64,000 bases of DNA from assembly GCF_001885095.1 (NCBI RefSeq), contig NZ_LZDD01000001.1, positions 248,001 to 312,000 on the forward strand, in the 5' to 3' direction. The translations under genes and the position numbers were made by a program. Shown here piece after piece: positions 7,342-20,559 of the stretch; within the stretch, counting starts at the first letter, position 1, and each line of letters begins with the position of its first letter. This DNA comes from Streptococcus bovimastitidis. GTDB taxonomy: Bacteria; Bacillota; Bacilli; Lactobacillales; Streptococcaceae. Below the pieces are notes generated by a model. It was not told where the DNA came from. It did not search any database and worked only from the letters and a program-made list of their open reading frames with translations.

Positions 7342-8547
7342 ATGAGTCAACAGGAAATTCGGGTGGTAAATGATGGTCAAACTGTTGATAAAGACTTCGT
7401 AAACTCTTGGGAGATATTTGATTATTGTGATCAATACAATGGAAGTCTTACAATATCTTTTGTCGGAGCAATTATAAAAAATGATAAAATTTTATTTTCA
7501 TTTCCAAAACATTATAAAGTCGATGATGATGAACACAATCAAGTTTCTTGTATGAAACAAATACTTTATATTTTATCGAAATCAAAAGCAAGTTATGGTA
7601 GTTTTGATAAAGGAATAAAAGGAGAATTTCCGATAAAAGCATATTTAGGCATTTTGATGCATTATAAGAAATATGGTTTATATTTATCTAATGAACAATA
7701 TTATGAAAATGGATATGCTGGAAACATAGATTGGAATAGAACAGTAAATAAATCAAACAAAATCATTCAGAAAAAAGGTGTAATATTTTTCCCATTCACT
7801 ATTAAGAGGACTAGGGATAAAAGTGTATTTATTAGCGAATGTATGAATTACGTTTTATCAGATGCAAGCAGATATAAGAAGTTTATAAATACAATTATGC
7901 CGTATGAATATATTAATAAAAACAATATATTCAACAACTTAAGGTATGTACTTAATGAATTAAAAAGGATTAGAAATCTATATTTTAAAGATATAGAAAA
8001 AAGGCTTATTAACAATTTGATTGAATATATAGAGTGGAAAAGCACAACTAGAGATAATGTCAGACTTATAACATTGAAATTTGAAAATTATTGGGAAGTA
8101 ATGATAAATGAATATCTCAACGATGGTTTTTGCGGAATAGAAGAAGATCAAATTATTTGGGGAGAAAACAAACAAAATAAATTCTCCAAGCCAGAAATGG
8201 AATATGTGGAAAGCGTAGAAAAAAGATTGCAATATAGAGGCAGAAGTCCATATAAAATACAGTACGATCATATATTTATTGATGATGATAATAGAAAAAT
8301 TGTTCTTTTTGATTCAAAGTATTTTAACGCGGAAGTGGATCAATTGAATTATAAACAATTATTCTATCATTATAATTTAAAGCAGAAGTACCCTGAATTT
8401 CTTATATATAATGGATTGCTTTTACCTACAGAAAAAAACTACTATACAAAAATTCATGTGGATAGGACTGATTTAGATGGAGTTAAAATAGTAGAACATT
8501 ACATTAACTTAAATTTAGTGTTGGATTATTATTCGAAATCAATATAA
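7342..8547 (+). CDS. LlaJI-family restriction endonuclease subunit (R2, McrC-like role)
   Basis: A 401-aa protein that starts 15 bp after R1 with GAGGTG upstream. The C-terminal half carries a PD-(D/E)XK-type nuclease core: Asp309 in QYDHIFI, then Asp324-Ser-Lys326 in VLFDSKYF on the next strand, followed by a helix with Gln/Tyr residues. The N-terminal half (VNDGQTVDKDFVNSWEIFDYC) resembles the LlaJI restriction-endonuclease family from memory. It would be the cleaving partner of the McrB-like NTPase and cut DNA lacking the M1/M2 modification. The low GC content matches the rest of the cargo. Family assignment is by motif and gene order. Confidence 0.82.
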   Translation: MSQQEIRVVNDGQTVDKDFVNSWEIFDYCDQYNGSLTISFVGAIIKNDKILFSFPKHYKVDDDEHNQVSCMKQILYILSKSKASYGSFDKGIKGEFPIKAYLGILMHYKKYGLYLSNEQYYENGYAGNIDWNRTVNKSNKIIQKKGVIFFPFTIKRTRDKSVFISECMNYVLSDASRYKKFINTIMPYEYINKNNIFNNLRYVLNELKRIRNLYFKDIEKRLINNLIEYIEWKSTTRDNVRLITLKFENYWEVMINEYLNDGFCGIEEDQIIWGENKQNKFSKPEMEYVESVEKRLQYRGRSPYKIQYDHIFIDDDNRKIVLFDSKYFNAEVDQLNYKQLFYHYNLKQKYPEFLIYNGLLLPTEKNYYTKIHVDRTDLDGVKIVEHYINLNLVLDYYSKSI

Positions 8548-8568
8548 GGTAAGGAGGTAAGTGAAATT

Positions 8569-9339
8569 TTGAAAAAAGAGAACAAAAATATATCGTTTTT
8601 GAAAATAGTGTATTTTGATGAAGAAGCAGCGACAGATTTGATTTACATGGAAAATAAAGGGAAGATAGTAGAGTCAATTGTAGATACTGAAAATAACAAA
8701 TTGGATACAAAGACAAGTGTTGAAGCTGGTATTGGAGCTAAAACTAGTTTGCTTTCTTTGTTGGGAGCAAAGTTTAAAATTGGAACCGATGTTTCTGTTG
8801 GGTACGGTTCACAACAATTAATTAATCAAGCAATTACGAATACTGTATTAACGGACTACTTAGACTTAACAAAAGAAAATAATCTTGTGAAAAAATTTGA
8901 TAAAGCTTCTGTTTATCCTTTTCCTAATTCACTTGCATACTTTAAATTAATTACTCCATATATGGTAATGACTGAAGGTAAGATGGATGCAGGGGATATT
9001 AAGTTAAATATTCAAATGATGGATGAGGCGTTGAATAAAGGTAAAGGCTATTTTGAAATGGTATTAGAAGATGAAGGGACAAAGTCAATATTACGATTTA
9101 ATTTAAAATCATTTAAAAATTCATATTCTTTATCAGACTTAGTGAAAATGGAATTAACTTATCATGCGGTGCGTGTTGGTAAAACTAAGTTAATTAATCT
9201 TGATGCCTCGAAGGAGTTCGCATATGAAAATATTGATAAAGAGATAGATGGATATAAAATCGCTAACGAGATTGAATCAATATCTGAAGATGATATAGAT
9301 GTATTTGATGTATTGTTGGCAGGAGTGAAAAATGATTAA
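8569..9339 (+). CDS. DUF6414-like protein of unknown function, paired with AAA+ ATPase
   Basis: A 256-aa soluble protein read from TTG 8569, 10 bp after a near-perfect AAGGAGGT at 8551-8558. The start FLKIVYFDEEAATDLIYM and the following Gly-rich segment (TSVEAGIGAKTSLLSLLGAKFKIG) match what I recall of the DUF6414 family; no catalytic motif is evident. The glycine-rich part around residues 45-80 is amphipathic enough to suggest membrane or oligomer contact, which is speculative. Its stop overlaps the start of the AAA+ gene by 8 bp, so the two are translated together and probably act together. It lies at the end of a restriction-modification operon, 21 bp after R2. A defence role is inferred from context. 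Confidence 0.65.
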   Translation: MKKENKNISFLKIVYFDEEAATDLIYMENKGKIVESIVDTENNKLDTKTSVEAGIGAKTSLLSLLGAKFKIGTDVSVGYGSQQLINQAITNTVLTDYLDLTKENNLVKKFDKASVYPFPNSLAYFKLITPYMVMTEGKMDAGDIKLNIQMMDEALNKGKGYFEMVLEDEGTKSILRFNLKSFKNSYSLSDLVKMELTYHAVRVGKTKLINLDASKEFAYENIDKEIDGYKIANEIESISEDDIDVFDVLLAGVKND

Positions 9340-10444
9340 GATTTTTTATGGACCAGCAGTCGAATTTGAAAAATTCCTTCCCAATGGCATTAGACCAAAA
9401 ACTTTAACAAAATTAATTACTGAATTGGATGCTCAAAATAGAAAATTTGACATAGTAGTTCCTCAAGATAAGAAAATAAAAAGAAAAAAAACAAATATAA
9501 AAAATTTGGTTGCTACAACTGAAGAATATTCTAGACTTAGTGATTCAGGTATAAATGGTTTTCTATCCTTGATAGCGGAAGTAAATATTAGTAATATGTA
9601 TTTTCAAAATCCGCCAGATACAATTGTACAACAACTAAAAGGAGTTTATGGAAATATATCGATAACTGAACACAGATACAAAAGAATTTCTGTAGATATG
9701 GTAAGAAAATTCTATAGAGACTTTGGTAAATATATACTGGGACAAGATGATTCAAAAAATAAGTTAGCGACAAATCTTTATAAAATGTCTCAGAACTATA
9801 ATAAAGATAAGCCTTTAGTAGTATTATTTTATGGACCAGCAGGAGTAGGAAAAACTGAAACAGCAAAATATATTGCCAGCCTAATGGAAGAAAAAGTGTT
9901 CAGGAAACAATTTTCTATGTATCAAAATAATTCTTTTGCAGATTATGTCTTTGGTGCAAATCATACAGCTTCTTCACTTGCAAGAGACTTAGTAGAGAGA
10001 CAAAGTAATGTTATATTATTCGATGAGTTTGATAAACCTAATAGCATATTTTATAGTGCATTTTATCAGATGTTTGATGAAGGTATTTTTGTTGATAAAA
10101 ATTACACATTAAATTTAAAAAATAGTATTATTATTTGTACTTCGAATTTTATAAATTTAACTGATGTCAGAAAAACTCTAGGGGATCCGATTTATAGTAG
10201 ATTTGATGCTTTTATAGAGTATAAGGAGTTGTCAGAAGAAATTTCTAAGAAACTAATACAGATAAAATTCTTAAAAATATATGATGGCTTAACTGAAACT
10301 GATAAAATGTTGCTAAACAAGGATGAAGCATTAAATAATATTTTGAGATTTGCGAAGGTGATGAAAAATGCAAGAGAAATCGAAAGAGTAATAAATGAAT
10401 ATATTTTTTCGCTGTTGCTAAAAGTAAAAATCGAAAATATTTAA
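9332..10444 (+). CDS. Clp/Hsp100-type AAA+ ATPase, partner of the DUF6414-like protein
   Basis: A 370-aa protein with a ~120-residue N-terminal region of no recognised family and one AAA+ module. It has Walker A GPAGVGKT at 168-175, Walker B LFDEFDK (Asp231, Glu232), sensor 1 CTSN ending at Asn272, an arginine segment DPIYSRFD, and a sensor-2-like NAREIER (Arg348, Arg352). The order resembles the second ATPase domain of ClpA/ClpB (DEIxKAH, then VLDDG, then MTSN). It lacks Clp N-domains and zinc fingers and is too short for a two-ring unfoldase. AGGAG precedes ATG 9332. The gene ends exactly one base before the convergent relaxase. It may remodel or unfold a target sensed by its partner; that is inference. 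Confidence 0.75.
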   Translation: MIKIFYGPAVEFEKFLPNGIRPKTLTKLITELDAQNRKFDIVVPQDKKIKRKKTNIKNLVATTEEYSRLSDSGINGFLSLIAEVNISNMYFQNPPDTIVQQLKGVYGNISITEHRYKRISVDMVRKFYRDFGKYILGQDDSKNKLATNLYKMSQNYNKDKPLVVLFYGPAGVGKTETAKYIASLMEEKVFRKQFSMYQNNSFADYVFGANHTASSLARDLVERQSNVILFDEFDKPNSIFYSAFYQMFDEGIFVDKNYTLNLKNSIIICTSNFINLTDVRKTLGDPIYSRFDAFIEYKELSEEISKKLIQIKFLKIYDGLTETDKMLLNKDEALNNILRFAKVMKNAREIERVINEYIFSLLLKVKIENI

Positions 10445-11776
10445 TTATCTCTCTATCTCTTTCCCCATATATTTTTCGTAGTTTTTCCTGATTTGATACA
10501 GTTCGGTCATCTCGGATTTCGATGAAGAATACTCTTGCATAAGGGTATTCTTTTTTTCGTTCAGTTTTTCAAGTTCCTCAAAAATCTGCTTGGAATTCGG
10601 CATTTTGGAATAGGATTTCTTTAATTCGGCAAGGGATTTTTCGTACAAGAGAATTTCCGCTTTATGCTCACCGGCAAAGGCTTTGTCAGTAGGGCCTTTC
10701 TTATATGCCTGATAAATTTGGCGGTATTTTGTTACAGTATGGACTTGCTCCATAGTAGTGGAAAGGGTAGCTATTTTTTCGTCAAGCAACTTGATTTCGT
10801 CCTGTAGGTTTTGTCTTTTATCCGCACTTTTTTTGATAAAATCATCAAGCTGAGCAAGAGACTTAAAGCCTTTTTCACGCATTAAGATAACAGTATCTGA
10901 TGCTACTTGCAGGTTGTGTTTGGTAGCCCAGAATTCATATTCCTTGCTTGATTGTGCCTTTTCATTGTTAGCAATGTCGATAATATTTCCGACACGCTTT
11001 TTAACGGAGAATGTCTTTTGATTAGCGTTTTCTAAAATTCTTTCTTTGAGTCTTTCTTCCGTATAATCTTCCCCGATAGTTTTTGCTCTTGTAAATCTTT
11101 CCTTGTCTTTGTGCTTGAAAGCGATGTGCTTGCCGCACTTGATTTCATAGCCGAGATCCGCTATCTTTTTCAAGAATTCGTCCCAGTCCTTTGACTGTTT
11201 TATCATTCTGTCAATATCAAACTGAAGCTTGCTTTTCCAAGAAGTTCCATTCTTGGCTTGTTCATTTTCATACCAGGATTTAGCGTTCGTCTTATACTTT
11301 TTCTTAAATCTTTCGTAGTATTCGTCAATAACTGATAGGCTATTTTCTTTACATAGTTTATCGCTTTGATAACGGATTTGATGATAGCTTCTTTTGTTGG
11401 ACTGGTAGCATTTCCCCGTTACCATATTTACATTATTAAAGATGATATGGTTGTGTATATGTCCTTTGTCAATGTGGGTAGAGAGGATAAATTCATACTC
11501 ATCTTTAAGTATTCTGTTGCAAAGTTCCAGACCAATTTGGTGTGCCATTTCAGGCGTAGCTTCGCCCGGCAAGAACGATTGAATAAGATGTCTTGCAAGT
11601 ACAGAACCTCTTATATTATTTTCTTCTCTTCGCCTTAAAAATTGTGTGTGAGCGGAAGCTGTGTGGCATTTATTGGTGCTGATTAGGATTTTTTCATCCG
11701 TCTTTTCGGCATTGGTTATATAGTCAATCGCCAAATTAAGCGTAGATTTTATAGGGTGAATTTTTGTTATTGCCAT
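10445..11776 (-). CDS. MOBP-type relaxase
   Basis: A 443-aa relaxase. The histidine triad motif THIDKGHIHNH (His101, His106, His108, His110) is the metal-binding motif III of MOBP/VirD2-like enzymes. The N-terminal region (MAITKIHPIKS, Tyr19 in LAIDYI) supplies candidate catalytic tyrosines. Roughly residues 250-443 are helical and coiled-coil rich. It should nick oriT and stay attached to the transferred strand. Its ATG overlaps the mobC stop by one base (TAATG), so translation is coupled. Its stop abuts the stop of the AAA+ ATPase with no spacer, so the cargo inserted right up to this gene. Confidence 0.9.
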   Translation of the reverse strand: MAITKIHPIKSTLNLAIDYITNAEKTDEKILISTNKCHTASAHTQFLRRREENNIRGSVLARHLIQSFLPGEATPEMAHQIGLELCNRILKDEYEFILSTHIDKGHIHNHIIFNNVNMVTGKCYQSNKRSYHQIRYQSDKLCKENSLSVIDEYYERFKKKYKTNAKSWYENEQAKNGTSWKSKLQFDIDRMIKQSKDWDEFLKKIADLGYEIKCGKHIAFKHKDKERFTRAKTIGEDYTEERLKERILENANQKTFSVKKRVGNIIDIANNEKAQSSKEYEFWATKHNLQVASDTVILMREKGFKSLAQLDDFIKKSADKRQNLQDEIKLLDEKIATLSTTMEQVHTVTKYRQIYQAYKKGPTDKAFAGEHKAEILLYEKSLAELKKSYSKMPNSKQIFEELEKLNEKKNTLMQEYSSSKSEMTELYQIRKNYEKYMGKEIER

Positions 11777-12428: not shown

Positions 12429-12656
12429 GTGCTAAAGAATAATATAGAACTTGACGTAAAGACAAAATGTATTGAAGTAGGAATAACACAGGTAAAGTTA
12501 GCTCAGCAAATTAAAACATCTGCACCGTATGTAAATCGAGTTATTCGTAACAAAGAATCTATTGTTAACAACACATTTGTAAAAATGATGGAAGCTTTGG
12601 GCTACGATATCGAGATAAGGTATGTAAGGCGCAGTGAATGTGATTACAGTAAATGA
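12429..12656 (+). CDS. Small XRE-family helix-turn-helix protein
   Basis: A 75-aa protein read from GTG 12429 with AAAAGGAGC about 7 bp upstream. The HTH is seen in GITQVKLAQQIKTSAPYVNRV, with a conserved later segment VKMMEALGYDIEIRYV. Tn1549-like elements often carry one such regulator beside the mobilisation genes. It overlaps the next ORF's earliest ATG by 4 bp, so it belongs to the operon with the response regulator. Its targets may be its own promoter or the mob promoter on the opposite strand; this is inferred. Confidence 0.75.
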   Translation: MLKNNIELDVKTKCIEVGITQVKLAQQIKTSAPYVNRVIRNKESIVNNTFVKMMEALGYDIEIRYVRRSECDYSK

Positions 12657-12676
12657 TGATTGTGGAGATGATTACT

Positions 12677-13333
12677 ATGAAAAGCATAATATATATTATC
12701 GAAGATGATAAATCAATAAATCGAGGGATAGAACTCACGCTCGGAAAAGAAAAATATGAGTTTAGAAATTTTTACAATTTATCGGATGTTAAGGATATAA
12801 ATGATGCGGATCTTTTTATTTTAGATATAAATCTTCCGGATGGAAATGGATTGGATTTTCTTAAAGTAATTAGAAAACATTCACAAAAACCAGTGCTAAT
12901 CTTGACTGCAAATGACACGGAAATTGCAGAAGTAGAAGGTCTTCAGTTCGGCGCAGATGATTATGTAACTAAGCCATTTTCCCTAATGGTATTAAGGTTA
13001 AGAATAGAAAAACTTTTGTCGAGAAACACAGAAAACGCTACATATAATAAACATGGATTAGATTTAAATTTCGATGCTTTTGTTTTTAAAAACAATGGTG
13101 TTGAATTTGAACTGAGTAAAACTGAGATTAGATTACTGAAATATTTGGTTGAAAATGAAGGTGTTATCTTATCTAGGGAAAAGTTGATTGATTATGTGTG
13201 GCAGAATCAGATGTATGTTGATGAAAATGCTCTTTCTGTAACAGTAAAAAGGCTTCGTGATAAGATCGAAAATGGGGAAGTAAAACTTATACACACTATT
13301 TATGGAATAGGATATGTTTTCAGATTGGAGTAG
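12677..13333 (+). CDS. OmpR-family response regulator
   Basis: A 218-aa regulator. The receiver domain has the acidic pair Glu9-Asp10-Asp11, phosphoacceptor Asp50 (FILDINLPDG), a Thr near ILTAND and the switch Lys in YVTKPFS. The C-terminal winged helix (residues ~125-218) has SKTEIRLLKYL and a recognition region ENALSVTVKRLRDKI. ATG 12677 is preferred over ATG 12653 because TGGAG lies 9 bp upstream and the receiver begins at once. It is followed with no gap by its kinase, then by an ABC exporter that it probably controls, as in BceRS/VncRS-type antimicrobial-peptide sensing modules. The inducer is unknown. Confidence 0.88.
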   Translation: MKSIIYIIEDDKSINRGIELTLGKEKYEFRNFYNLSDVKDINDADLFILDINLPDGNGLDFLKVIRKHSQKPVLILTANDTEIAEVEGLQFGADDYVTKPFSLMVLRLRIEKLLSRNTENATYNKHGLDLNFDAFVFKNNGVEFELSKTEIRLLKYLVENEGVILSREKLIDYVWQNQMYVDENALSVTVKRLRDKIENGEVKLIHTIYGIGYVFRLE

Positions 13334-14188
13334 ATGATGTTTAGAAAAAATGAATTTACAGCTCTAAATGAAATGCTTGATTTAGCAATAAATGGTGAGT
13401 TTGAGGAAAAATTTTTTGATGAGACAGAGTTGTCAAAATTTCAAACTAAGTTCATGCGTTATCTTACGAATTCCTCTATGTCTGAAAAGAAAATTACAGA
13501 GGAAAAGAATAAACTAAAGCAACTAATTACAGATATATCACATCAAACAAAGACACCGTTAACTAATATTGTCATGTATTCTGAGTTGCTTTGCGAAATT
13601 GCGGATGAACCTCAAATAAAGGATTATGCAAGTGAAATTAGTATACACAGTAGAAAATTAGAAGAACGTATAAATGCTTTGACAAAAATGTCAAGACTTG
13701 AAGGTGGAATATTGCAATTTAAGGAAAGCGAAATTCTACTTGATCGGATAATTGCGAATGTGGTTAATCAAGCTTCACTAAAAGCTTCTGCCAAGAATAT
13801 AAAAATAGATATTGAAACTAATGTGGATACCATAGTAAAAGTTGACGAAAAATGGGTGGTAGAAGCCGTATTTAATATTTTAGATAATGCGATTAAGTAT
13901 TCTGAAGAGAATAGCAGAATAAAGATTAATACATTTTGTTATGAAATGTTTTGCGGAATAAATATTATAGATCAAGGTTTAGGAATACCAGAACATGAAA
14001 TTCCAAAGATTTTTTCTAGATTCTATAGAGGGACTCTTGCAGAAAATACAGAAGGAATTGGCGTGGGATTATTTCTTGCACGAAATATTATCGAAGGACA
14101 TGGTGGATATATCAAAGTTAAATCAAAAGTAGGAGCTGGTAGTACTTTTGGGATCTACTTCCCAATTCTTTCAAAAGTGAAAGATTAA
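13334..14188 (+). CDS. Sensor histidine kinase without membrane segments
   Basis: A 284-aa kinase. The HisKA site is His70 in DISHQTKTPL. The HATPase domain has the N-box (FNILDNAIKYS), a G1-like DQGLGIP, FSRFYRG, and a G2 box GIGVGLFLARNI. There is no hydrophobic stretch long enough for a membrane helix in the ~60 residues before the H-box. Related BceS-type kinases have two N-terminal helices, so this one is presumably cytosolic or depends on the transporter for sensing. It follows the regulator stop directly (TAG then ATG) with GGAG a few bases upstream. Confidence 0.88.
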   Translation: MMFRKNEFTALNEMLDLAINGEFEEKFFDETELSKFQTKFMRYLTNSSMSEKKITEEKNKLKQLITDISHQTKTPLTNIVMYSELLCEIADEPQIKDYASEISIHSRKLEERINALTKMSRLEGGILQFKESEILLDRIIANVVNQASLKASAKNIKIDIETNVDTIVKVDEKWVVEAVFNILDNAIKYSEENSRIKINTFCYEMFCGINIIDQGLGIPEHEIPKIFSRFYRGTLAENTEGIGVGLFLARNIIEGHGGYIKVKSKVGAGSTFGIYFPILSKVKD

Positions 14189-14216
14189 AGAAATTTTCTG
14201 GAAAGTATGCAGTGTT

Positions 14217-14255
14217 ATGCTAAGCATAGATAGATATGCTTAGCATTTTCTTTTA
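14217..14255 (+). terminator. Perfect 12-bp hairpin between kinase and ABC genes
   Basis: ATGCTAAGCATA (14217-14228), loop GATAGA and the exact complement (14235-14246) are followed by TTTTCTTTT. It lies 18 bp before the next start codon and should attenuate transcription into the exporter genes unless relieved. Confidence 0.75.
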
Positions 14256-14272
14256 TACATGGAGGAATAAAT

Positions 14273-14959
14273 ATGGATGTTCTAAAAACAGAATCATTAA
14301 AAAAATACTATAACCAATCTAAAGTGATTGTAAAGGCTATTGATGGAGTTGATATTTCAGTATCTCATGGAGAATTTGTTGCTATAGTTGGTTCTAGCGG
14401 TAGTGGCAAATCAACATTGCTCAATATGCTTGGTGGATTGGATAGACCAACAGAGGGAACTGTATTGGTTGATGGAAAAGATATATTTACATTTAAGGAT
14501 GAAGAGCTAACTATTTTTAGACGAAGAAAAATAGGATTTGTTTTTCAGGCGTACAATCTTGTACCAATGCTTAATGTATATGAAAATATCGTGCTTCCTA
14601 TAGAACTTGATGGTAATGAAGTTGATAAAGGATATGTGGATTCAATTATTACTTCTTTAGGACTAAAAGAAAAAATAAATAGTATGCCTAATCAACTATC
14701 AGGTGGGCAGCAACAAAGGGTAGCAATTGCTAGAGCACTTGCTACTAAACCATCTATTATACTTGCTGACGAACCAACAGGGAATTTAGATTCAAAAACA
14801 AGCCAAGATGTTATTGGACTTTTGAAAGTTACAGGAGAAAAATTTAATCAAACAATAGTGATAATTACTCACAATGAGGAAATTGCACAGGCGGCGGATC
14901 GCATTATAAGAATAGAAGATGGTCATATAGTTTCAAAGGGCGGTGGTCTTAATGCGTAA
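14273..14959 (+). CDS. MacB/LolD-type ABC transporter ATPase
   Basis: A 228-aa ATPase: Walker A GSSGSGKS (40-47), Q-loop in GFVFQAYN, signature LSGGQQQRVAIARAL, Walker B IILADEPTGNLD and the H-loop in VIITHN. The sequence around the Q-loop and the DEPTGNLD phrase is typical of the MacB/BceA/LolD subgroup, which couples to FtsX-like permeases for antimicrobial-peptide resistance or lipoprotein handling. GGAGG precedes the ATG. The permease gene overlaps its end by 8 bp. Given the neighbouring two-component system, a peptide-resistance exporter is the best guess. Confidence 0.9.
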   Translation: MDVLKTESLKKYYNQSKVIVKAIDGVDISVSHGEFVAIVGSSGSGKSTLLNMLGGLDRPTEGTVLVDGKDIFTFKDEELTIFRRRKIGFVFQAYNLVPMLNVYENIVLPIELDGNEVDKGYVDSIITSLGLKEKINSMPNQLSGGQQQRVAIARALATKPSIILADEPTGNLDSKTSQDVIGLLKVTGEKFNQTIVIITHNEEIAQAADRIIRIEDGHIVSKGGGLNA

Positions 14960-17462
14960 AATAAGTAATCGAAAATGGATTTCAAATATTAGTAAAAAAA
15001 GTATGAAAGCTAATAGGAAAAGAAATTTAATATTAATAGTTGCCATTTCACTTACCGCCTTTATGATGACTGCAGTGTTTACTATTGCAGGCAGTATGAT
15101 AAACGGTATGGAAAAATCTACGATGTATCAGGTGGGGACAGATTTACATGCAGGGTTTAAATATTTAACGCAAGAGCAATTTGATAAGCTATCTCAAGAT
15201 AATAAAATAAACAAACTCTGTTACAACATTATAGTAGGGAAATCAACTAATGAAGAACTGCGAGAAGATTATACTGAAATTAGGTATACAGATGAAATAA
15301 ATGCAAAGCATTCATTTTCATCCCCTGAAATTGGAGTGCTTCCCCAAAAGGAAAATGAGATTGCAACTTGTGTAAATGTACTGGATGATTTTGGATTACC
15401 GCATGAGATAGGACAAAAGATTCATCTGAAAATAGATAACGGGATTGATACCTATGAAGGCGACTTTGTTATCAGCGGGATTTGGAAAAAACCAGCAGAA
15501 ACACTTACTAACCAAATTTTTGTATCGAAAGAATTCCAAGAAAAATTTTCTCCTGTTTGGAAAAATGAAGCTGATATGAAGAATTTTTTGAATGTTAACT
15601 CATACTCCGGCTCAATTAATCCGGCATTTAATTTTAATAATTCTTTTAATATTAGCGGGAAGATGGAGGATTTAAAAACAAGACTTGATTTTGGAAAAGA
15701 AATAAACGATGGAGTTAACTGGGCATATTCGACATCTTCAATAGATCCGACAAGTGCTGCTATTATGATTTTTTTACTATTCATAATTATGATTTCAGGC
15801 TATCTAATAATAAGCAATATTTTTAGTATCTCGGTAACCGCAGATATTCATCACTATGGTTTGCTTAAGACCATTGGAACAACTAACAAGCAACTTAAAA
15901 AAATTATAATCAGACAGGCAATTATGATTAGTGCTATTGCGATACCTATCGGTCTTGTAATTGGCTATTTTGCTTCGATGGTAATTATTCCGCAAATTGT
16001 TAGTAATATGATTAATATTCCTATAAATATAGGATTTAACATTAGTTTTTTTCTAATAAGTGGCATCTTTTCGTGGGTAACTATCAGAATAAGCTGTGTA
16101 AGAGCATGTAAAATTGTTAAAAAAGTATCACCTGTTGAAGCTGTAAGATATGTAGATTATTCAAATTCGATTAATAAAAAAAATAAAAAAACTCATAAGG
16201 TTACACCTGTAACTATGGCTTGGCAAAATATTGGACGTAATAAAAAGAAAACATTTTTTGTCATTCTTTCTATGGCATTGAGTGTAATTATGCTGAATAT
16301 AAGCATATCTCTTGTGGCGAGCTTTGATGAAGATAAATATATAAGTAGTTTTTCTAGCTCTGATTTTACCGTAGCGGACGCTTCTGTTTTTAACAAAAAT
16401 TCTTTAGCAGCAGATTATGAAGGGGTGAGTCAGGATGATATTGAATATTGTAAAAAACTTGCAGGAATAGAGAAAATAGGTGCGATTTACATGTCGGCAG
16501 GACTTCATAAAGTAGATGATACAGTTTTGAATAGAGTGAAAAAATTTTATGAATCTATTAAAAGTGAAATTAATCCTTATGAGGCAAAAGAACTAGAGAG
16601 TCGTATTTTTGCTAATCAAGAGATATACAGCAAAGTATACGGATTGGATCAAATGGTTTACGAGAATCTTGAAATGGATGCCGGGAATTTGGATTGGGAA
16701 AAATTCAAATCAGGGAACTATGCAGTTGTTTCTGCTCCAATCAAAGGTTCCGGAGATGATGCAGCTTTAGCATTTTATAAAATGGGAGAAAAAATCAGCG
16801 TGAAAATGCCTGATGGTTCCGTAAAGTCATATGAGGTAATGGGAATTGGAAATGTTCCTTACTCTATGGGACCGGGATATTCACAAATAATAGATGTTAA
16901 TATTATGCTCCCATCAACAGAATATTTATCTTATTCACAGAGTAATAAAGCGATGAAGCTTTTCGTAAATGTTGATGATTCGCATATAAATGTTGCAGAG
17001 GCATCGTTAATTGAATACAGCGAAAAGACAAAACCACTTCTTGATTTTGAATCAAGAAATAAATATAAAGAGAGTTTTAATGAAATGAAAAGAACATTTC
17101 TATTGATTGGAAGCGCAATGAGTTTAATTCTTGCATTGATAGGAGTTTTAAATTTCATAAACTTAACTTACACATCCATAAACGAAAGGAGTGGTGAACT
17201 TAAAACACTTCATGCGGTAGGAATGACTAATAAGCAGATAAAAAATATGCTTGCTGCTGAAGGCGTGATGAGAATATTATTTACATTCGTTGTGGTACTC
17301 ACAGTTGGAATAGGATTAAACCATTCTATAGTAAATATGATTGCTGGACAAATGATAATGTTTAAATATCAGTTTATTATTTGGCCAGTATTAGTAGCCA
17401 TACCATTATTTTTGCTGATTGCATATATAGTACCCCAATTGTGTAAGTGGCAAAAAGTATAA
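14952..17462 (+). CDS. FtsX-family ABC transporter permease
   Basis: An 836-aa permease with two FtsX repeats. There is one N-terminal helix near residue 20-45, a large extracytoplasmic domain to about residue 265, three helices (around 270-390), then a second N-terminal-type helix near 445, a second extracellular domain, and three C-terminal helices ending KWQKV. ATG 14952 is preferred over the upstream GTG because it overlaps the ATPase stop with a G-rich site just ahead. The duplicated FtsX layout with large extracellular loops matches exporters that shield cells from antimicrobial peptides or cell-wall-active compounds. The substrate is unknown. Confidence 0.85.
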   Translation: MRKISNRKWISNISKKSMKANRKRNLILIVAISLTAFMMTAVFTIAGSMINGMEKSTMYQVGTDLHAGFKYLTQEQFDKLSQDNKINKLCYNIIVGKSTNEELREDYTEIRYTDEINAKHSFSSPEIGVLPQKENEIATCVNVLDDFGLPHEIGQKIHLKIDNGIDTYEGDFVISGIWKKPAETLTNQIFVSKEFQEKFSPVWKNEADMKNFLNVNSYSGSINPAFNFNNSFNISGKMEDLKTRLDFGKEINDGVNWAYSTSSIDPTSAAIMIFLLFIIMISGYLIISNIFSISVTADIHHYGLLKTIGTTNKQLKKIIIRQAIMISAIAIPIGLVIGYFASMVIIPQIVSNMINIPINIGFNISFFLISGIFSWVTIRISCVRACKIVKKVSPVEAVRYVDYSNSINKKNKKTHKVTPVTMAWQNIGRNKKKTFFVILSMALSVIMLNISISLVASFDEDKYISSFSSSDFTVADASVFNKNSLAADYEGVSQDDIEYCKKLAGIEKIGAIYMSAGLHKVDDTVLNRVKKFYESIKSEINPYEAKELESRIFANQEIYSKVYGLDQMVYENLEMDAGNLDWEKFKSGNYAVVSAPIKGSGDDAALAFYKMGEKISVKMPDGSVKSYEVMGIGNVPYSMGPGYSQIIDVNIMLPSTEYLSYSQSNKAMKLFVNVDDSHINVAEASLIEYSEKTKPLLDFESRNKYKESFNEMKRTFLLIGSAMSLILALIGVLNFINLTYTSINERSGELKTLHAVGMTNKQIKNMLAAEGVMRILFTFVVVLTVGIGLNHSIVNMIAGQMIMFKYQFIIWPVLVAIPLFLLIAYIVPQLCKWQKV

Positions 17463-17728
17463 AAATTAAACTATATATTTAGTTAAAAGGATGTGGAGAA
17501 GAATGTCGATATATTTATATACTTTAAAAATAGATCAAGATATAATACATTCTCCTTTTTCCTGCGTTCTTAATACCTTTATGCCTTCTTAAACATTTAA
17601 CTAACCAATTAAATAGAATTAAAGGAAGATCAAGTTTCTTTCGTTTTCGAGGACTTCTTATGCCTATGTGCAGGAGTCCTCCTTTTTTGTCTTAAAACGC
17701 AGACAAAAAAGAAATGGAGGAAGCATAT
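17463..17728 (+). terminator. Intergenic region with terminator (17649-17689)
   Basis: A stem GAGGACT/AGTCCTC at 17649-17681 followed by CTTTTTTG ends the exporter operon. Upstream, a 29-codon ORF at 17503-17592 (ATG behind GGAGAAG) could be a small peptide but has no other support. The region is otherwise featureless and AT-rich. Confidence 0.65.
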
Positions 17729-18139
17729 ATGCCAAAAGAATATTACCTTTATGTCTATGGACAAAAGGTTAAAGTCAGCGAGCAGATATATAAAGTCTAC
17801 TGGCGAGAAAAAGAACACGAAAAGTATTTAGAGCAGGTGGACAAGAAAAACCACTTGCTCTTTTTTTCATCATTGGATCATGACGGACACTTTGTAGATA
17901 ATATTGTTGATGAAAGTGTTGATGTAGAAAAGATTGTTGAAACACAGATGATGATTGAAGCAGTCAGAAATGCTATATCAAGGCTCAATGCAGAAGAAAG
18001 AGATATTATTGAACGCTTGTATTTCAATGATGAAACGGTTCGTTCGGTGGCAAAGCTCAAAAGTATTACACATCCGGCTTTAATCAAAAGAAGAAATAAA
18101 ATTCTTGAAAAGCTGAAAAAATTTATTGAAGAACTTTAA
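17729..18139 (+). CDS. Sigma-70 region 4-like protein of the conjugative element
   Basis: A 136-aa protein starting MPKEYYLYVYGQKVKVSEQ at ATG 17729, which has GGAGG 8 bp upstream; the in-frame ATG 17714 lies before that site. The C-terminal part (ISRLNAEERDIIERLYF, then a helix pair around SVAKLKSITHPALIKRRNKILEKL) is a sigma-70 region 4-type HTH. Short sigma-like proteins sit just before the recombinase in Tn1549-like elements and probably regulate excision or transfer genes. The YWREKEHEKYLE motif is the usual start of that family. Function as an alternative sigma factor or as an HTH regulator is unproven. Confidence 0.82.
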   Translation: MPKEYYLYVYGQKVKVSEQIYKVYWREKEHEKYLEQVDKKNHLLFFSSLDHDGHFVDNIVDESVDVEKIVETQMMIEAVRNAISRLNAEERDIIERLYFNDETVRSVAKLKSITHPALIKRRNKILEKLKKFIEEL

Positions 18140-18628
18140 AACTTCGGTAACCAAAGGGGTCAAATTTTCCTTATGTAAAGTGAAGGGGAGTTTGACCTCC
18201 TTTACTTTCTTGAATAAGAGATAGCCTGCTTATGGCAAATAGGAAAATGTAAAGAAAATAATCCCTTTCAAATATTGCTCTTTGACAAGTGAATAGACCA
18301 AGGTAGGACTTTATCCATTTACTGAGAGTTATGACCTACGCCAAGACTTTTCTGCTGATGAAAATCGGTTCAAATGAATACCGGCATATTGTCGAGGTTA
18401 GAAGAAAACGAGCGATAGATAGGAATACATAAAAGATAAGCGTGGCGGCTTATTTCGATGATGTAAGTGGTGATAATGATACTTCAATAGTTTAAGCTGC
18501 CTCGTCTGAAACAAGGGGCGGAGGTGAGATTCCTATGTAGCAGCCAATGCACCTACCAATGTCATAAAACTTAGTAAGAAAAATAATACTTGATTATAAA
18601 GAATTTAAAGCGGGAGGGGGGTGTATTG
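18140..18628 (+). ncRNA. Non-coding, probably structured segment before the recombinase
   Basis: No convincing ORF occurs in these ~490 bases although they do not resemble random AT-rich spacer. They contain several pairable blocks, including GCCTCGT with AAGGGGC (near 18498-18519) and AGGTG with CACCT (near 18521-18555). From memory, near-identical text (around AAGCTGCCTCGTCTGAAAC) recurs at the same place in other clostridial-type conjugative elements. That would mean selection on the nucleotide sequence itself: a regulatory RNA, an attenuator, or a protein-binding region. This is an unverified recollection and no transcript boundaries are visible. Confidence 0.4.
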
Positions 18629-18790
18629 GTGGATAATGACTGGAATGGACTGGCTGATTTGATAGCAAATCTGATTACAAAGTATGCTGGAGTTTTAGAT
18701 TTAGATAATCTTCCAAATCCAACTCCAGTAAAAAATATTGAAGATAAAAATAAATTTGACATGGCAAAAACTCAGATTGAGAACAAGTGA
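18629..18790 (+). CDS. Small acidic 53-aa protein upstream of recombinase
   Basis: The likely start is GTG 18629 about 8 bp after GGGAGGGGGG, which is an excellent ribosome-binding site. The peptide begins VDNDWNGLADLIANLI, is acidic and helical, and has a Pro/Asn-rich middle (DNLPNPTP). I do not recognise its family. It sits between the sigma-like gene and the serine recombinase, and the recombinase promoter overlaps its last codons. It could be a recombination directionality factor or a regulatory peptide, but no motif supports either. Confidence 0.55.
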   Translation: MDNDWNGLADLIANLITKYAGVLDLDNLPNPTPVKNIEDKNKFDMAKTQIENK

Positions 18791-18805
18791 TAAAAGTGCT
18801 ATAAT
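18777..18805 (+). promoter_or_regulatory. Promoter of the serine recombinase gene
   Basis: TTGAGA at 18777-18782 and TATAAT at 18800-18805 are spaced 17 bp, with an extended -10 TGC. The -35 lies inside the preceding small ORF. Confidence 0.75.
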
Positions 18806-18879
18806 ATACTTGATATATTAGTCCAAACCATAAGTGGTAAAAATATTAAGATATAGAAAAATATATTGAGGTTAATGCT

Positions 18880-20559
18880 ATGTCAAAAGAAAAAACAAAA
18901 GTATACCTCTACACAAGAGTATCTACATCAATACAGATAGATGGCTATTCTTTAGAGGCACAAAAATCAAGAATGAAGGCGTTCGCCCTTTATAATGATT
19001 ATGAAATTGTAGGAGAATATGAAGATGCGGGCAAGTCTGGAAAATCTATTGAGGGAAGAATACAGTTTACTCGCATGATGGAAGATATAAAATCCGGAAA
19101 GGATGGAGTATCTTTTGTTCTTGTGTTTAAGCTGTCAAGATTTGCAAGAAATGCTGCTGATGTTTTATCAACTCTACAAACAATGCAAGATTTTGGAGTC
19201 AATTTGATTTGTGTTGAGGATGGGATTGATTCATCCAAAGATGCAGGTAAATTGATGATTTCAGTTTTATCAGCTGTGGCTGAAATTGAAAGAGAAAATA
19301 TTCGTGTTCAAACAATGGAAGGGCGTATTCAAAAGGCAAGAGAGGGCAAATGGAATGGAGGTTTTGCTCCTTATGGTTATCAACTTATTGATGGAAAATT
19401 GATAATCAATGAGGAAGAAGCAATTGCGATACGAACTATTTTTGATCAGTATGTAAATACAACCATTGGAGCCAATGGACTTTCTAAATACTTAGAAAAT
19501 CATGGTATAAGAAAAATTCCAAGACAAAATGGGAAAAATCCATTGTTCGACGCAGGTCTTATAAGAAAGATATTAAAAAACCCTGTATATAACGGGAAAA
19601 TAGCCTTTGGAAGAAGAACTTTAGAAAAAGTTCATGGAACAAGAAATGAATATAAGCAAGTTGAACAAGATGAATATTTAATAGCTGAAGGTATTCATGA
19701 AGCTATAATTTCTGATGAGCTATGGCAAGCAGCTCAAGTTAAGTTAAAATCTCAAGCAAAGAAATATGAGCATGTGAATAAAGGGAAAGATACACGCACA
19801 CATCTGCTTTCAGGAATTGTGAAATGTCCAATATGTGGAGTGGGAATGTTTGGAAACAAGTGTATTAAGAAAAAGAAAGATGGTACAAAGTATAAAGATT
19901 TTTATTACTATGGCTGTAAACATAGGCATATGATAAGAGGTCATAAATGTACTTACAATAAACAAATCAGAGAAGAATTGTTAGATGATGCAGTTGCTGA
20001 GGTAATTATAAAGATAGTAAGCAATCCCAAATTTGCTTCTATGATGCAAGAAAAAATTAACATGAAGGTAGATACCTCTGAAATAGAAAAAGAGATAGAT
20101 AATTACCAGAAAGAATTGAGGAAGAGCCATTCTACGAAATTTAAGCTAATTGAGGAAATAGATAATTTAGATGCTGATGATAAGCACTACAAACGAAGAA
20201 AACAGGACTTAGACGATAGACTTTATCATATGTATGATAAGATTGAAGACTTAGAATCATTGTTAATTGATGCGAAAGCAAAGAAACAAACTATTGAAGC
20301 TGAGAAACTTACAGGAGATAACATATATAAGATTTTGATCTATTTTGATAAACTTTACAAGGTAATGAATGATGTAGAGCGTAGACAGTTAATTACAGCT
20401 TTGATTTCTGAAATTCAAATTTACGAAGAAAAGCAACCGAATGGGCAATGGCTAAAATCAATTACTTTTAAACTTCCTATCATCGATGAAGATTTAAATA
20501 TAGGTTTGGACAATGATGAGCATGTTGAGTGTGTAAGCTTGTTAGAAAAACGCAAGTAA
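18880..20559 (+). CDS. Large serine recombinase (integrase/excisionase) of the element
   Basis: A 559-aa recombinase. The resolvase-type catalytic domain spans about residues 5-150, with catalytic Ser15 in YTRVSTS and the arginines in FKLSRFARN and the later EIEREN helix. A recombinase domain (GKWNGGFAPYGYQ) follows. A zinc-ribbon module holds CPICGVGM and the second pair in YYGCKHRHMIRGHKC. A coiled coil from about residue 405 to 480 precedes the C-terminus. This is the size and order of the Tn1549/TndX/TnpX-type large serine recombinases that integrate and excise elements. GAGG lies ~8 bp before ATG 18880. It is the last gene of the element. Confidence 0.93.
   Translation: MSKEKTKVYLYTRVSTSIQIDGYSLEAQKSRMKAFALYNDYEIVGEYEDAGKSGKSIEGRIQFTRMMEDIKSGKDGVSFVLVFKLSRFARNAADVLSTLQTMQDFGVNLICVEDGIDSSKDAGKLMISVLSAVAEIERENIRVQTMEGRIQKAREGKWNGGFAPYGYQLIDGKLIINEEEAIAIRTIFDQYVNTTIGANGLSKYLENHGIRKIPRQNGKNPLFDAGLIRKILKNPVYNGKIAFGRRTLEKVHGTRNEYKQVEQDEYLIAEGIHEAIISDELWQAAQVKLKSQAKKYEHVNKGKDTRTHLLSGIVKCPICGVGMFGNKCIKKKKDGTKYKDFYYYGCKHRHMIRGHKCTYNKQIREELLDDAVAEVIIKIVSNPKFASMMQEKINMKVDTSEIEKEIDNYQKELRKSHSTKFKLIEEIDNLDADDKHYKRRKQDLDDRLYHMYDKIEDLESLLIDAKAKKQTIEAEKLTGDNIYKILIYFDKLYKVMNDVERRQLITALISEIQIYEEKQPNGQWLKSITFKLPIIDEDLNIGLDNDEHVECVSLLEKRK

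Follow-up and report, generated by a model that had tools for sequence, protein, structure and literature searches.

A Dodola copy beside a LlaJI-type restriction system in Streptococcus bovimastitidis, with clues to the mechanism from its ATPase and its DUF6414 protein

Dodola is an anti-phage system of two adjoining genes, dolA and dolB, that was reportedly first described by Millman et al. in 2022. In the excerpts available of PMC11514479, the system is cited as active against the B. subtilis phage SPP1, and that group's own systems, Dodola included, are said to have given minimal effect. The parts of PMC12322248 that deal with Dodola describe it as protective against all streptococcal phages tested, and report no protection against a lactococcal phage when Dodola was placed on the vector pNZ123; they also describe protection from a plasmid with Dodola as its sole system and no restriction genes, as well as a growth delay caused by chromosomal Dodola that was gone on knockout. 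The mechanism is given as "unknown" in those parts (2025), and the same word is used in the corresponding passage of a 2026 review (PMC12926258). In the wording of the PMC11514479 excerpts, "DolA" is Clp-like and "DolB" shows weak matches to DNA/RNA-binding proteins; these structural descriptions seem to be swapped, since in the present models the Clp-like protein is DolB. A limited literature search by the word DUF6414, the name of the Pfam family of DolA, found no mention of this term.

The ATPases to which DolB has to be compared include the HSP100 motors, which pull polypeptides with an aromatic pore loop 1 (GYVG); in those that partner the Clp protease, the ClpP-docking loop is located in the stretch from sensor 1 to the arginine finger. 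Torsin is an HSP100-related single ATPase in which the pore-loop aromatic has been lost. PADLOC also includes a related two-gene candidate, PDC-M37A/B, of which four copies are considered here, one detected by profile (L049, positions 251-2295) and three plasmid copies detected by similarity (L127-L129).

The window, i.e., the whole stretch of DNA analysed here, covers 64,000 nucleotides of Streptococcus bovimastitidis, and the features of interest are collected in Table 1. Judged from its sequence, the gene pair is an intact copy of Dodola: the first protein is assigned to DolA along positions 4-258 of a PADLOC profile of 258, the second to DolB along positions 4-373 of a profile of 375, and dolA comes first with dolB adjoining it. 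Since both profiles are matched over nearly their full length, the likeness of the pair exceeds chance. The first-pass annotation had considered the pair an undescribed system, a view that was dropped on account of the DolA and DolB assignments, given that Dodola has been tested in other hosts according to the excerpts of PMC11514479 and PMC12322248. Nevertheless, its proposal of a coupled two-gene defence pair on a mobile element was right, and its DUF6414-like first protein scores 69.1 bits with the Pfam model, for which the cut-off is 25. This copy differs from other Dodola systems in its distance to the nearest relatives found, L005 and L006, with which it has 50-56% identity, and in its location on a mobile element, 3' of a LlaJI-type system. 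The layout of the locus is also as first annotated. The two reading frames have 8 bp in common (9332-9339); the TTG codon of dolA is preceded by a near-perfect Shine-Dalgarno sequence, TAAGGAGGT, that ends 10 bases upstream of it; the LlaJI-type gene ends at 8547 and thus leaves 21 bp before dolA; and the end of dolB at 10444 is flush with that of the opposite-strand relaxase ORF at 10445. A promoter scan gave 20 sites versus 21.6 expected.

Table 1. Coordinates of the Dodola genes, their domains and motifs, and the adjoining genes in the window
Feature	Position	Strand	Basis or remark
LlaJI-type restriction gene, neighbour and not part of Dodola	7342..8547	+	PF09563, 4.9e-9
Shine-Dalgarno TAAGGAGGT of dolA	8550..8558	+	Read from the sequence, within the 21-bp gap 3' of the LlaJI-type R gene
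dolA (DUF6414 family)	8569..9339	+	256 aa, TTG start; PF19952, 6.9e-19; DolA PDLC03837, 1.1e-67
DolA residues 43-82, amphipathic strand/hydrophobic tip/amphipathic strand	8695..8814	+	Measures on 23 sequences
DolA OB-fold-like half, residues 106-256	8884..9339	+	Model, weak: Z 4.6-6.2
dolB	9332..10444	+	370 aa, ATG start; DolB PDLC03838, 1.4e-124; model pLDDT 90.2
DolB N-terminal alpha/beta domain	residues 1-115	+	Model; Asn93-Pro94 invariant
DolB Walker A GPAGVGKTE, residues 168-176	9833..9859	+	Alignments
DolB place of pore loop 1, residues 208-214	9953..9973	+	6-7 residues shorter than Clp, no GYVG
DolB Walker B DEFDK, residues 231-235	10022..10036	+	Alignments
DolB sensor-1 Asn272 to arginine finger Arg290, residues 272-290	10145..10201	+	Alignments
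MobA/VirD2-type relaxase of the carrying element	10445..11776	-	PF03432, 2.9e-34

The LlaJI-type operon upstream of dolA comprises two C5 methylases, a McrB-like ATPase and the RE_LlaJI protein. The helicase ORF at the left edge of the window is the end of an ORF of 2,773 aa, and before this ORF, up to 10.6 kb ahead of the start of the window, there are genes for a C5 methylase, a topoisomerase and an AbiEii toxin, the last accompanied by a DUF6088 gene. The region 12653-20559 of the window encodes a response regulator and an FtsX-type permease, together with a large serine recombinase that may be the integrase of the element; the ORFs between these genes appear, by eye, sensor kinase- and ABC ATPase-like.

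Besides the window's own locus, 41 loci from two genome searches (39 and 2) were compared. A DolA match was detected directly 5' of dolB and on the same strand in 39 of them, two of which (L012 and L031) show a partial dolA; the two loci without a DolA match, L033 and L043, both have an incomplete DolB. Overlaps of 8, 4 or 1 bases between dolA and dolB are found in many loci, and matches to the LlaJI R1 and R2 proteins were found in none of the 41 within flanks of up to 8 kb. The pair does therefore recur, adjacent and in the same order, without LlaJI. In Anaerosphaera multitolerans (L005), the backbone of the element is conserved (identities of 72% for the helicase, 59% for a 219-aa protein, 65% for the relaxase and 58% for a 173-aa protein) and Dodola, with 53% and 56% identity, occupies the same slot adjoining the relaxase, while a C5 methylase and a different type II enzyme replace LlaJI. 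By sequence comparison, this locus is the best natural experiment, in which the restriction system has been exchanged and Dodola retained. The separateness of the pair from the LlaJI enzyme, as the first-pass annotation had it, is borne out by this exchange, and the reading of the two proteins as LlaJI subunits was dropped on the same grounds together with the R1/R2 count.

The possibility that these are housekeeping genes was also discarded, given their distribution. The DolA profile finds 3 genomes among 59, a figure that counts the window's own and another one in which the gene is in two broken pieces; in the phylum, a clear DolB (401-440 bits) is present in 3 genomes of the 398 searched, once more counting that of the window, and the next match has 119 bits. 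Since Clp-type ATPases other than DolB are matched by the DolB profile in each of the 398 genomes, its bare tally means nothing. Among 398 genomes of the class, 18 have DUF6414, at 19 places in total. DolB adjoins 7 of the 18 places examined (the window, L078, L081, L109, L113, L115 and L117), and was absent, by tblastn in the fetched stretch, from 11 of the 18, one of which (L118) is at a contig end. In plasmids the count was 17 of 72,556 records, from the genera Enterococcus, Leuconostoc, Lactiplantibacillus, Alkalihalophilus, Listeria, Levilactobacillus and Latilactobacillus, and in phages it was 1 of 50,697 records.

Another aspect of the locus is the kind of gene that precedes dolA. Of 27 distinct loci, 8 have a restriction or BREX gene directly 5' of dolA, on the same strand and no more than 150 bp away: LlaJI in the window, type IIG enzymes in L007 and L019 (77% identical to each other), BrxL in L014, the type I subunits HsdS in L015 and HsdR in L117, a Bpu10I-type enzyme in L028, and a type II methylase in L029. 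Identity in DolB among the 27 loci does not exceed 89%; left out before the count were L006 (contig edge), the loci with partial genes L012, L025, L031, L033 and L043, near-duplicates, and all plasmid records. A same-strand ORF within 150 bp 5' of dolA is present in 15 of the 27 loci, and 12 have none; the other seven of the 15 correspond to a zeta toxin (L078), ORFs with no PADLOC match (L011 and L113) and small ORFs (L020, L080, L109 and L115), and since the count of eight covers scanned ORFs, these four small ORFs fall outside it. Near but uncounted are L005, where the enzyme gene is on the opposite strand, and L011, where a type IIG gene and a methylase lie further upstream. The control consisted of 30 Abi_2 loci (L130-L159), among which several genes are incomplete; here the scan covered the five same-strand ORFs of at least 100 aa located within 150 bp upstream, as well as one at 154 bp, and a single match was obtained, a methylase-like gene in L138 with a gap of 146. 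The difference gives a Fisher p of 0.0095 (0.019 with L007 and L019 merged), a value that is a guide only because the Dodola and Abi_2 sets were sampled differently. The varied upstream systems fit better with co-transcription for convenience, or with layered defence, than with a link to one enzyme. In L078, from a genome of the same genus, the zeta-toxin gene (PF06414, 1.2e-56) runs 4 bp into the start of dolA (8512-11210, minus strand).

Genes for TIR-domain proteins are also found next to DUF6414 genes. Two Enterococcus plasmids carry a gene for a TIR-domain protein whose end is 12 bp 5' of dolA-dolB (L086, 4269-6855; L083, 6527-8855); the copy in L083 is shortened beside an IS6-family element. 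The TIR gene is thus upstream in both annotated records with that DolA variant; two further records of the variant lie outside this count, as L126 starts there and L125 carries no annotation. No TIR gene was found 5' of dolA in L088, an Enterococcus plasmid with another DolA. The arrangement of TIR and dolA-dolB on Enterococcus plasmids is possibly a three-gene form of Dodola. In L112 (4713-6373, minus strand), a CAP12/Pycsar-type TIR gene (PF10137, 9.4e-38) comes after a DUF6414 gene and the vicinity gave no DolB match, so that the two genes are a possible DUF6414-TIR pair.

Regarding the ATPase, residues 115-370 of the predicted DolB model have the AAA+ fold of the second ring of ClpA, ClpB and ClpC (Z of about 20-22); likewise, the ClpA model matches residues 120-362 (5.5e-18) and ClpB chains in the PDB are matched with 2.3e-15, in agreement with the likeness to the second domain of ClpA/ClpB noted at first. 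The Walker A (168-175), Walker B (Asp231-Glu232) and sensor (Asn272) positions are those originally annotated, and G168, G173, K174, T175, D231, E232 and N272 are invariant in an alignment of 22 sequences (A1). Across the 46 distinct DolB proteins compared, of which many are closely related, the invariant residues are Gly173-Lys174-Thr175-Glu176, Asp231-Glu232, Asn272, Arg290, Asn346, Arg348 and the pair Asn93-Pro94. Of the traits of an HSP100 unfoldase, DolB has the second-ring fold, Walker A and B, the sensors and the arginine finger; it shares the fold, both Walker motifs, sensor 1, the arginine finger and sensor 2 with ClpA, ClpB and ClpC, and differs from them by having no first ring, no GYVG, a short ClpP-loop region and another N-terminal domain. 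A GYVG-type threading motif was found in none of the 46 distinct sequences. Alignment with two Clp proteins encoded in the same genome locates one shortening, of 6-7 residues, at pore loop 1 and another, of 13-20 residues, in the stretch from sensor 1 to the arginine finger. The role of unfoldase assigned to DolB by the first-pass annotation is not supported, in view of the absent motif and the shortened ClpP-loop region. A conserved Tyr205-x-Phe207-Gly208 lies just N-terminal to the pore-loop gap, and these residues could act as substitutes to grip a client. DolB resembles Torsin as an HSP100-related single ATPase without the threading aromatic (Pfam match of 2.4e-5); however, the match has 24.9 bits, under the cut-off of 27, and DolB keeps the arginine finger.

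PDC-M37 has in common with Dodola two adjacent genes, an ATPase similar to the second ring of ClpA/B, and a shortened segment linking sensor 1 to the arginine finger. In contrast with DolB, PDC-M37B keeps a GYI or GYV loop in the four copies and has another N-terminal region; thus, among the ATPases compared, the loss of the loop is specific to DolB. DolA and PDC-M37A are weakly related (hhalign probability of 8.5%, E 0.0039). An assignment of the window's pair to PDC-M37 was rejected, given that its ATPase scores 414 bits with the DolB profile versus 82 with that of M37B, and lacks the GYI/GYV loop.

The monomer model of DolA has a mean pLDDT of 67, and residues 34-85 are below 50. The structures matched by residues 106-256 are mostly chains that we take to be OB folds, with Z values that, being below 8, may reflect only a common arrangement. 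Foldseek searches with the DolA model gave a best E of 0.23 against the PDB and also against viral models, and the DolA profile had one match among PDB sequences (E 0.082), that is, no solved relative was detected by sequence. A different picture emerges from residues 43-82. In 23 DolA sequences, the 10-residue windows with a mean polar/nonpolar alternation of Z at least 2 start only at 43-50, 64-69, 71 and 210-211, with a maximum of 2.82 at residue 48; in the control with 22 DolB sequences, 0 of 360 windows reach this value and the maximum is 1.70. A hydrophobic tip separates the two alternating runs, and the segment is rich in G, A, S, T and N (49% versus 30% elsewhere) and devoid of proline (0% versus 2.5%) and cysteine in the 23 sequences. 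On visual inspection of an alignment of 34 DolA proteins that have little identity, this build can be traced in most of them, and it is least clear in L035 and L084. Compared with shuffled sequences, the hairpin Z of each of the 23 proteins ranges from 0.2 to 3.3; the best position is elsewhere in the protein in L035, and a stretch past residue 130 outscores 43-82 in L029, L030 and L044. In four PDC-M37A and ten orphan DUF6414 proteins the segment is mostly weak or absent, the exception being L116 with a Z of 3.1. From its pattern, the segment resembles a membrane-inserting beta-hairpin, and may enter the membrane.

The reading that we favour, with a probability of about 0.55, is that DolB is a non-threading ATP-dependent switch or holder that acts on DolA, and that DolA halts phage production. 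DolB would probably form a ring and hydrolyse ATP; the loss of the loop that pulls polypeptides and of most of the ClpP-loop region argues for an ATP-driven switch or holder rather than a threading unfoldase. As suggested by the order of the genes, the most likely client of DolB would be DolA, encoded directly 5' of it; upon infection DolB would alter the state of DolA, and this protein, as the presumed infection-stopping part, would then stop phage production. On the other hand, the occurrence of DUF6414 without DolB at 11 of the 18 places speaks against DolA as a fixed client of DolB, and the association of DUF6414 with TIR genes suggests that proteins of this family can serve effectors of other kinds, an argument against DolA being the effector in every case. 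The minimal effect given for Dodola in the excerpts of PMC11514479 also weighs against the favoured reading. It is unlikely that DolB is a true unfoldase or disaggregase guided by DolA to phage proteins, given the missing threading loop in the 46 sequences and the short ClpP-loop region; nevertheless, the HSP100 second-ring fold and the full set of ATPase motifs agree with this role, and the loss of GYVG is no proof against threading, since some AAA+ rings may grip their clients otherwise. Less probable still is that the pair works as an accessory of the restriction enzyme encoded upstream, as the excess over the Abi_2 controls might suggest, because the upstream genes are of different kinds, no such gene was found in 19 of the 27 loci, and a plasmid with Dodola alone is protective according to the excerpts of PMC12322248.

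Two other proposals differ in the part given to DolA. In one of them, which we hold as tentative, DolA is a sensor or adaptor whose OB-like half would bind phage nucleic acid or protein, and DolB would stop the infection or pass the signal to a further effector. The OB-like matches, and the DUF6414 genes beside TIR genes on the two Enterococcus plasmids and in L112, are consistent with it; the low Z of those matches, the fact that profile searches found no known effector domain in DolB, and L088, without a TIR gene 5' of dolA, count against it. In the other, somewhat more doubtful, the 43-82 hairpin of DolA would insert into the membrane on oligomerisation and form a pore, with DolB restraining or assembling DolA, as a form of abortive infection. 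The similarity to bacterial gasdermins and other beta-pore formers is limited to the idea of an amphipathic hairpin, and none of the matches from the structure and profile searches with DolA was recognised as related to them. In favour of a pore are the alternating runs with the hydrophobic tip between them, a pattern that the DolB control windows do not show, the proline-free composition, the persistence of the build in proteins of little identity, the low confidence of residues 34-85 in the monomer model, and the growth delay that the excerpts of PMC12322248 attribute to chromosomal Dodola. However, the Z values of individual sequences are modest and L029, L030, L035 and L044 deviate, alternation can be a trait of soluble hairpins as well, the sequences are related and do not count independently, and the segment is mostly weak or absent in PDC-M37A and orphan DUF6414; furthermore, the DolA next to a TIR effector gene in L086, where a loss of the segment would have hinted at an effector role, retains it, and this does not favour the segment as the effector. 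The fuller proposal of Dodola as a pore-forming defence, in which DolB, a ClpB-type ring without threading, would be the ATP-driven catch that keeps DolA inert, or assembles it upon the sensing of a phage, is more doubtful still.

The copy found in S. bovimastitidis is in itself one more Dodola, and its interest resides in the clues that it gives to the mechanism. No earlier description of the threading-loop loss of DolB or of the hairpin segment of DolA was found in a limited search that covered portions of the Dodola literature. These two sequence facts, the absence of the threading loop from all 46 DolB proteins examined and the conserved hairpin-like segment of DolA, make the mechanism of Dodola testable; if the pore reading were true, Dodola would represent a membrane attack gated by an ATPase, of a kind new to bacterial immunity.
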